From Tannerella sp. (GTDB lineage: Bacteria; Bacteroidota; Bacteroidia; Bacteroidales; Tannerellaceae): DNA of 16,648 bases. The notes under the pieces were generated by a model. It made no database searches, was not told the origin of the DNA, and worked only from the letters and a program-made list of their open reading frames with translations. A program made the translations under genes and the position numbers. Positions 16,394 to 16,648 of the stretch are shown one piece after another. Location of the stretch: assembly GCA_031268395.1 (NCBI GenBank), contig JAIRXI010000389.1, positions 1 to 16,648 on the forward strand, given 5' to 3'. Position 1 is the first letter of the stretch. The number at the start of each line of letters is the position of its first letter.

Positions 16394-16648
16394 CTAAAGG
16401 ATTAATATTATAGGTTTTTCGCTGTTCATGCGTATTTTCAAAACCGGCGCACGGGAGATGATTTCCATTTCACGGGAGATGATTCTTATATCACGTGATA
16501 TTGCTTCTGTTTCACGTGAAGATGGTTTTATATCACGTGAAGATGATTTAACTTCACGTGACATGATTTCATTTTCACGTGAAAACGGTTTCATCTCACG
16601 TGAAGTCAGTTTCATTTCACGTGATATAAAAACTGTCTCTCGTGAAAC
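16394..16648 (-). CDS. Possible C-terminal part of a heptad-repeat protein (partial, minus strand)
   Basis: Open without a stop from the window edge to a TAG at 16394-16396: 84 codons. The frame reads nine consecutive heptads beginning SRE or SRD (SRETVFI, SREMKLT, SREMKPF, SRENEIM, SREVKSS, SRDIKPS, SRETEAI, SRDIRII, SREMEII), then SRAPVLK and a short unrelated tail. Hydrophobic residues favour heptad positions 4 and 7, a 3/4 spacing compatible with a coiled coil. It would end 116 bp from the convergent receptor gene. The plus strand is equally open across the same repeats, so this may be an artefact of the palindromic DNA unit. Confidence 0.3.
   Translation of the reverse strand, partial: VSRETVFISREMKLTSREMKPFSRENEIMSREVKSSSRDIKPSSRETEAISRDIRIISREMEIISRAPVLKIRMNSEKPIILIL
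16428..16648 (+). CDS. Possible N-terminal part of a heptad-repeat protein (partial, plus strand)
   Basis: An ATG at 16428 opens a frame that stays open to the window edge, 73 codons. After MRIFKTG it reads heptads AREMISI, SREMILI, SRDIASV, SREDGFI, SREDDLT, SRDMISF, SRENGFI, SREVSFI, SRDIKTV and SRE. Position 7 is almost always I, V or F. A start codon only seven codons before the first repeat favours this strand, as does TATATTTG at 16334-16341, a match to TAnnTTTG, although that lies almost 90 bp upstream. The opposite strand is equally open, so coding status is unproven. Confidence 0.35.
   Translation, partial: MRIFKTGAREMISISREMILISRDIASVSREDGFISREDDLTSRDMISFSRENGFISREVSFISRDIKTVSRE
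16449..16648. repeat. Tandem array of 21-bp palindrome-centred repeats, continuing past the window
   Basis: Ten units are visible, with the core hexamer starting at 16450, 16471, 16492, 16513, 16534, 16555, 16576, 16597, 16618 and 16639: exactly 21 bp each time. Seven units (the third to ninth) carry the perfect palindrome TCACGTGA. The first two have CACGGGA and the last TCTCGTGA. The other 13 bp are loosely kept around AGATGATTTCATT. 21 bp is both seven codons and two turns of B-DNA. Both strands are open in the frame that reads TCA CGT GAA as Ser-Arg-Glu. Confidence 0.97.

Follow-up and report, generated by a model that had tools for sequence, protein, structure and literature searches.

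Tandem palindromic arrays immediately upstream of three gene families in Bacteroidales

The window analysed here, a 16,648 bp stretch of Tannerella sp. DNA, ends in an array of short palindromic cores. It resembles a kind of array that normally precedes a multi-copy gene, but appears here to be detached and has no such gene beside it. The finding is the array-plus-gene architecture itself, which involves three gene families, B, C and DUF6261, the last across the order Bacteroidales, and of which the window copy is a fragment. The arrays are linked to their genes on one side only. Their period is near two or four helical turns, and repeat spacing beside the gene is near whole turns. Their palindromy is partly maintained unit by unit without strand bias, and their cores vary from copy to copy. 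We conclude that DNA geometry is the constraint common to the arrays. Our preferred reading, to which we give a probability of roughly 0.4, is that they are cis-acting, helix-phased DNA elements that would control the gene behind them, the mechanism of this control being something that we infer.

The window array

The window takes up contig C228, one of 425 in the assembly, from end to end. This contig stops at position 16648, inside the array. Direct reading of the array (16449..16648, with no strand assigned and truncated by the contig end) bore out an earlier note that had described ten cores at exactly 21 bp spacing, seven of them perfect TCACGTGA. The 8 bp cores start at 16449, 16470, 16491, 16512, 16533, 16554, 16575, 16596, 16617 and 16638. 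The seven perfect cores are those starting at 16491 to 16617, and the remaining three are GCACGGGA, TCACGGGA and TCTCGTGA. Tandem Repeats Finder returned periods of 21, 42 and 63 for the array. When a two-core pattern was used to query the whole assembly with up to two mismatches, 30 matches were obtained per strand, mostly in C228, C187 and C153 with the remainder in other arrays, and the reversed pattern, used as a chance control, gave none.

Both strands are open through all units, as had also been noted. On the minus strand, a frame encoding Ser-Arg-Glu heptads (16394..16648) runs in the direction that would be expected of gene B, is open at the contig end and is a possible leader frame. 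On the plus strand, a frame that starts with ATG (16428..16646) is likewise open at the contig end. In the two Ser-Arg-Glu frames, third codon positions do lie opposite one another.

Two further copies of the array were found in the same genome, a complete one in C187 (93% identity over 254 bp) and a partial one in C153 (91% over 222 bp). The C187 array has eleven cores and directly precedes a gene for a 329 aa protein, here named B, and an open frame that traverses the array terminates at -14 relative to the ATG of B. A flank present in all three copies (16395..16448, no strand assigned) separates the array from gene B in C187. The similarity between the window and C187 reaches only to 16395, and gene B is absent from the window copy. 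In C153, several bases matching the beginning of the gene have been retained.

The window and C187 differ at 16 positions in the stretch compared. Five of these are within the spacer at 16541..16553 (no strand assigned); the corresponding spacer in C187 has exactly the reverse-complement sequence. A recombinase-driven invertible DNA switch was considered; the one exact spacer inversion seen is between paralogous copies. Nine of the other 11 differences are at third positions of the Ser-Arg-Glu frame, as would be expected if the array were a coding repeat. The C153 copy, which differs more and in part through replaced units, argues against this, as only 13 of its 28 differences from C187 and 10 of its 21 differences from the window are at third positions.

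Gene B and its arrays

Gene B has eight matches in its own genome, some of them partial. It was found in 16 of the 100 relatives searched, all of one genus, and in none of the 294 other genomes of an order-wide draw. Its named relatives comprise four MAGs recorded as Tannerella sp. and a fifth recorded as Bacteroidales bacterium, and we take these MAGs to be of termite origin. No family near cut-off was returned for B from Pfam, NCBIfam or PHROG, and of 49 stretches in IMG/VR that matched the search pattern none was confirmed. The AlphaFold2 model of B (mean pLDDT 75.6, pTM 0.41) places an FN3-like sandwich between a helical part and a helix at the C terminus.

The best repeat lag upstream of B is 21, 42 or 63 in 22 of the 23 copies scored. 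With the stricter score that was used for controls, arrays were found upstream of 19/23 copies and downstream of 3/22, two of the latter being a 69 bp repeat. This 69 bp-period tandem repeat lies downstream of gene B at loci L017 (C187) and L062 (C284). The cores vary by copy and include TCACGTGA, CCACACGTGTGG, CCCGTACGGG, TCTCGCGCGAGA, TTTCCCGGGAAA and others. In G007C86 and G023C23, the upstream flanks are 79% identical over 1,099 bp, yet the array units differ.

The palindrome centres stand in a single register to the ATG in 15 of the 23 B copies, where about one would be expected by chance, though the copies are related. Together with a 21 bp period common to unrelated arrays, this favours the earlier proposal that register is under selection, with shared ancestry accounting for some part of the agreement among B copies.

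Whether the product of B might bind its own array was approached through similarity correlations among 15 copies. Protein similarity was weakly correlated with core similarity over the whole protein (r 0.12, P 0.16) and somewhat better over the first 60 columns (r 0.23, P 0.02), and the spacer correlated better with protein similarity than the core did (r 0.37, P 0.004). These correlations are not decisive for a self-binding product.

Several B loci have features of their own. The B copy at L034 (G001 C178) has no array, and the sequence just upstream of it resembles the last part of a transposase gene, as if an insertion had replaced the array. A common region about 400-900 bp upstream of B at L063 (C308), L019 (C292), L060 (C321) and L056 (G031 C76) is possibly phase-variable. 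It contains a short open frame, hairpins rich in GC and a promoter-like sequence, TATCTTTG or TATCTTGC, and at three of these loci also a run of 9-12 G. These four loci suggested that an array might form the final part of a phase-variable gene with a poly-G tract, an idea that was rejected as a general rule because most B copies are without the region. Downstream of the B copy at L056, positions 2515-2582 match the Rfam family RF03081 (DUF805 RNA) at 71 bits, above cut-off.

Family C and DUF6261

A blind sample of 20 contigs from the same genome (approximately 158 kb) contained further arrays, some with period 21 and some with period 23. One of the 21 bp arrays precedes a gene for a 221 aa protein of a second family, C, that is present in 25 of 61 genomes. 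The model of the family C protein (pLDDT 90) has helices followed by an FN3-like sandwich, the order of elements being as in B. No match to a replication initiator was found for C in Pfam. Arrays with a period of 21 bp or multiples of it were found upstream of 21/22 scored copies of C and downstream of 0/21. Their palindrome centres have no single register to the start codon. A promoter-like motif, TANNTTTG, which we take to be the Bacteroides -7 element, lies close to the outer end of the array at 8 of 17 C loci, and on the reverse strand at 2 of 17.

As DUF6261 is also a multi-copy Bacteroidales family, it was tested next. It was found in 17 of 31 relatives, and in or near the genus an array lies upstream at 8 of 12 loci and, among further loci of which two repeat loci of the order-wide set, at 15 of 20. 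In the order-wide set, DUF6261 is present in 25/247 genomes and 19/174 genera, and four of these genomes have at least 14 scored copies each. Arrays were found upstream at 22 of 28 of these loci and downstream at none of 28, where two of the loci are copies from the same genome with the same result and one is from the genome of the window. The period is 41 bp at 15 loci, 42 bp at six and 43 bp at one. For comparison, 7 of 109 windows before ORFs of at least 250 codons in 19 sampled contigs of the window's genome contained an array, and not all of these ORFs are genuine genes.

Profile comparison of B and C gave an E-value of 0.062 and was colinear over 161 columns, which is not significant; the values for C and DUF6261 and for B and DUF6261 were 0.30 and 0.31, respectively. 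A PADLOC query with a single representative of each of the three families gave 0 hits at E≤0.1. No described function for DUF6261 was found.

Arrays away from these genes

Some arrays in the genomes are not in front of such genes. Arrays of 21 bp units in C20 (L065 16003-16290) and C260 (L077 8629-8917) share the same flanks but have different units. What look like terminal inverted repeats close off these flanks, an arrangement that would suit a small mobile element without coding sequence. Tandem arrays that are palindromic but have period 23 are found at L064 1-231, L065 4597-4756, L074 6893-7116 and L079 7226-7441. Two of these have matching flanks, and in the stretches seen they are not tied to B, C or DUF6261. 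At L020 3230-3430 (C305) and L021 1-260 (C385), 21 bp arrays with a GGAGCTCCAGGAAATTTTCCC-like unit are not before gene B.

The main rival to control by DNA arrays is a self-propagating satellite of quasi-palindromic tandem units that expands by slippage and hairpin-assisted template switching, and that travels with gene cassettes while having no function for them. Such a process would also perfect palindromes and could flip spacers. We consider it less probable than the preferred reading. In its favour are the gene-less window copy, the spacer exactly inverted between the window and C187, the arrays before B at L059 (C327) and L060 (C321), in which unit orientation reverses between the first and second part, and the similar arrays inside elements with inverted ends or with period 23. 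The earlier note would have taken the array for neutral satellite DNA if the frames were broken immediately beyond the window, by frameshifts or stops, and relatives showed no conservation, and this was not what we found. A satellite also does not readily account for placement almost only upstream, adjoining the start codon, in three families, for a period that stays at 21 or 41-43 despite turnover of the sequence, or for the fixed register in 15 of the 23 B copies. Placement on one side only speaks against a satellite without settling the matter.

Palindromy in DNA or RNA

In a permutation test in which the centre was chosen for symmetry and end units were included, the B arrays had 76 compensated double changes against 55.0 after permuting the right halves, and the C arrays 66 against 36.4; in both families 0 of 500 permutations was as high. 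A few arrays, among them C78 and G031C184, run opposite and have fewer pairs than permuted arrays. Palindromy exceeds that of shuffled units at p<0.05 in 26 of 69 arrays, so it is common but not universal.

The arrays are also predicted to fold far better than shuffled sequence, with mean z of -8.1 for 22 B arrays, -4.8 for 21 C arrays and -4.2 for 10 DUF6261 arrays. This, together with the promoter-like motif at the outer end of the 8 C arrays, is what would be expected if a transcribed array formed a row of hairpins in the leader that controlled mRNA stability or translation. However, the gene strand is the better-folding of the two in only 25 of 53 arrays, and G-T mismatches do not outnumber A-C ones (164 vs 194 in B and 173 vs 190 in C), where selection on a transcript should have favoured G-U pairs. 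Because there is neither a strand bias in folding nor a G-U excess, palindromy appears to act on DNA rather than RNA, and an RNA element is a very improbable explanation. When eight loci were compared with Rfam, the arrays matched only microRNA-type families, far below the cut-offs, and these matches were taken as chance hits to palindromic repeats. The compensated changes and the absence of strand bias would also be expected from the mutational process of a satellite.

Reading frames through the arrays

The earlier note had offered a heptad coiled coil as the alternative to DNA sites on one helix face. In its extended form, the array would encode the heptad coiled coil of a small leader-frame protein before B, and palindromy would follow from readability in both orientations. 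Some observations on the B subfamily fit this. In the 15 in-register B arrays, the Ser-Arg-Glu frame contains 6 stops against 27.0 expected and its counterpart on the other strand 3 against 18.4, and 0 of 1000 simulations was as low. Frames +2 and -1 are not depleted (18 vs 13.8 and 13 vs 12.3 expected), and frames +0 and -2 are in between (17 vs 26.4 and 6 vs 17.3). In addition, a gene-direction frame through or into the array ends exactly at -14 in 13 of the 23 B copies.

The depletion depends on the null: the six stops seen compare with 29.3 under random placement of changes and with 9.4 when column make-up is fully preserved, the two nulls bracketing the expectation, and with the latter the depletion is marginal (P 0.047). 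That frames +0 and -2 are also low weakens it further. In-frame stops are present in C292 (three), G001C176 (two) and G031C312 (one), the 5' part of the leader frame before B is not conserved, and within arrays third positions vary only a little more than the other two (266 vs 220 and 228, of 1050 each). In family C, there is no frame-specific depletion, all six frames being mildly low. A search of a protein collection with the heptad protein gave three hits at E≤1e-4, and a search of plasmids and phages, limited by a low-complexity filter, gave no match.

As 41 bp units cannot keep a reading frame, coding is not the general cause of the arrays. For the same reason, and because family C lacks a frame-specific shortage of stops, DNA sites on a helix face fit the whole data set better than heptad coding does. 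We therefore regard a coding repeat as an unlikely explanation overall, though these frame statistics make a translated leader possible in the B arrays.

Proposed control by helix-phased arrays

In its intact form, the element would consist of tandem 21 bp or 41-42 bp units with quasi-palindromic cores, immediately before the start codon of B, C or DUF6261. Under the reading that we prefer, the symmetric sites, lying on one helix face, would act as duplex DNA. Most simply, the array would be a landing platform to which a putative dimeric DNA-binding protein binds cooperatively, or else a supercoiling-sensitive element, and in either form might control expression of the gene behind it. Because arrays are homogenised within and divergent between copies, the element controlling any one gene copy would be almost private to it. 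The arrays of the B subfamily may additionally be translated, as part of a leader frame that stops 11 nt short of the gene.

Several observations do not sit easily with a DNA platform. The predicted folds of B and C, helices plus an FN3-like sandwich, match no known DNA-binding fold. Palindromy reaches significance in a minority of arrays and falls below permuted arrays in C78 and G031C184. The TANNTTTG motif is near only 1 of 18 B arrays and 2 of 8 DUF6261 arrays. Some arrays in the genome do not precede such genes and some have period 23, and the coding signature of the B arrays is something that this reading does not need.

A more far-reaching proposal is that Bacteroidales have chromosome-wide sets of addressed gene modules, in which each DUF6261, B or C gene has a private array of symmetric DNA sites spaced at two or four helical turns. 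Homogenisation and spacer inversion would rewrite the sites, and paralogues would be controlled independently, possibly by their own or a partner product. We regard this as a speculation that is unlikely to hold in full. Whichever reading applies, a constant partner array that changes in sequence but hardly in period is a direct handle on the function of these gene families, and the arrays are a natural case for separating selection on DNA geometry from palindromes that perfect themselves.

Comparison with known systems

The earlier note recognised no described system of this form, and this held in our literature searches, which covered open-licence papers and found no description of such arrays. 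The closest comparisons are with five known kinds of repeat or site array. REP/BIME elements, with their RAYT transposases, are also short palindromic repeats that are present many times per genome and often clustered (cf. PMC3733652). The arrays here differ in being tandem at a fixed period, with units that differ between loci. No match to the RAYT Y1 transposase family (PF01797) was found in the assembly containing the window, which is 81.89% complete, whereas 5 of 14 control genomes had one.

CRISPR arrays are likewise made up of regular palindromic units, but the spacers here are variants of one sequence within an array. Coding minisatellites for coiled coils share the 21 bp units that read as heptads, and the B arrays are poor in stops; however, 41 bp versions and non-coding 21 bp versions of the array exist here.

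Plasmid iterons are tandem repeats of approximately two helical turns directly upstream of rep genes, and the arrays share with them the tandem layout, a unit of about two turns and a place directly in front of a gene. They differ from iterons in that a single genome has tens of arrays whose units are not the same, and in that the genes that follow matched no replication-initiator family in the scans made.

Helically phased operator arrays consist of symmetric sites on one helix face before a gene. In the arrays described here the site sequence varies at each paralogue and no candidate regulator was found, but they share with these operators the symmetric, same-face sites in front of a gene, and it is like them that they most likely work.
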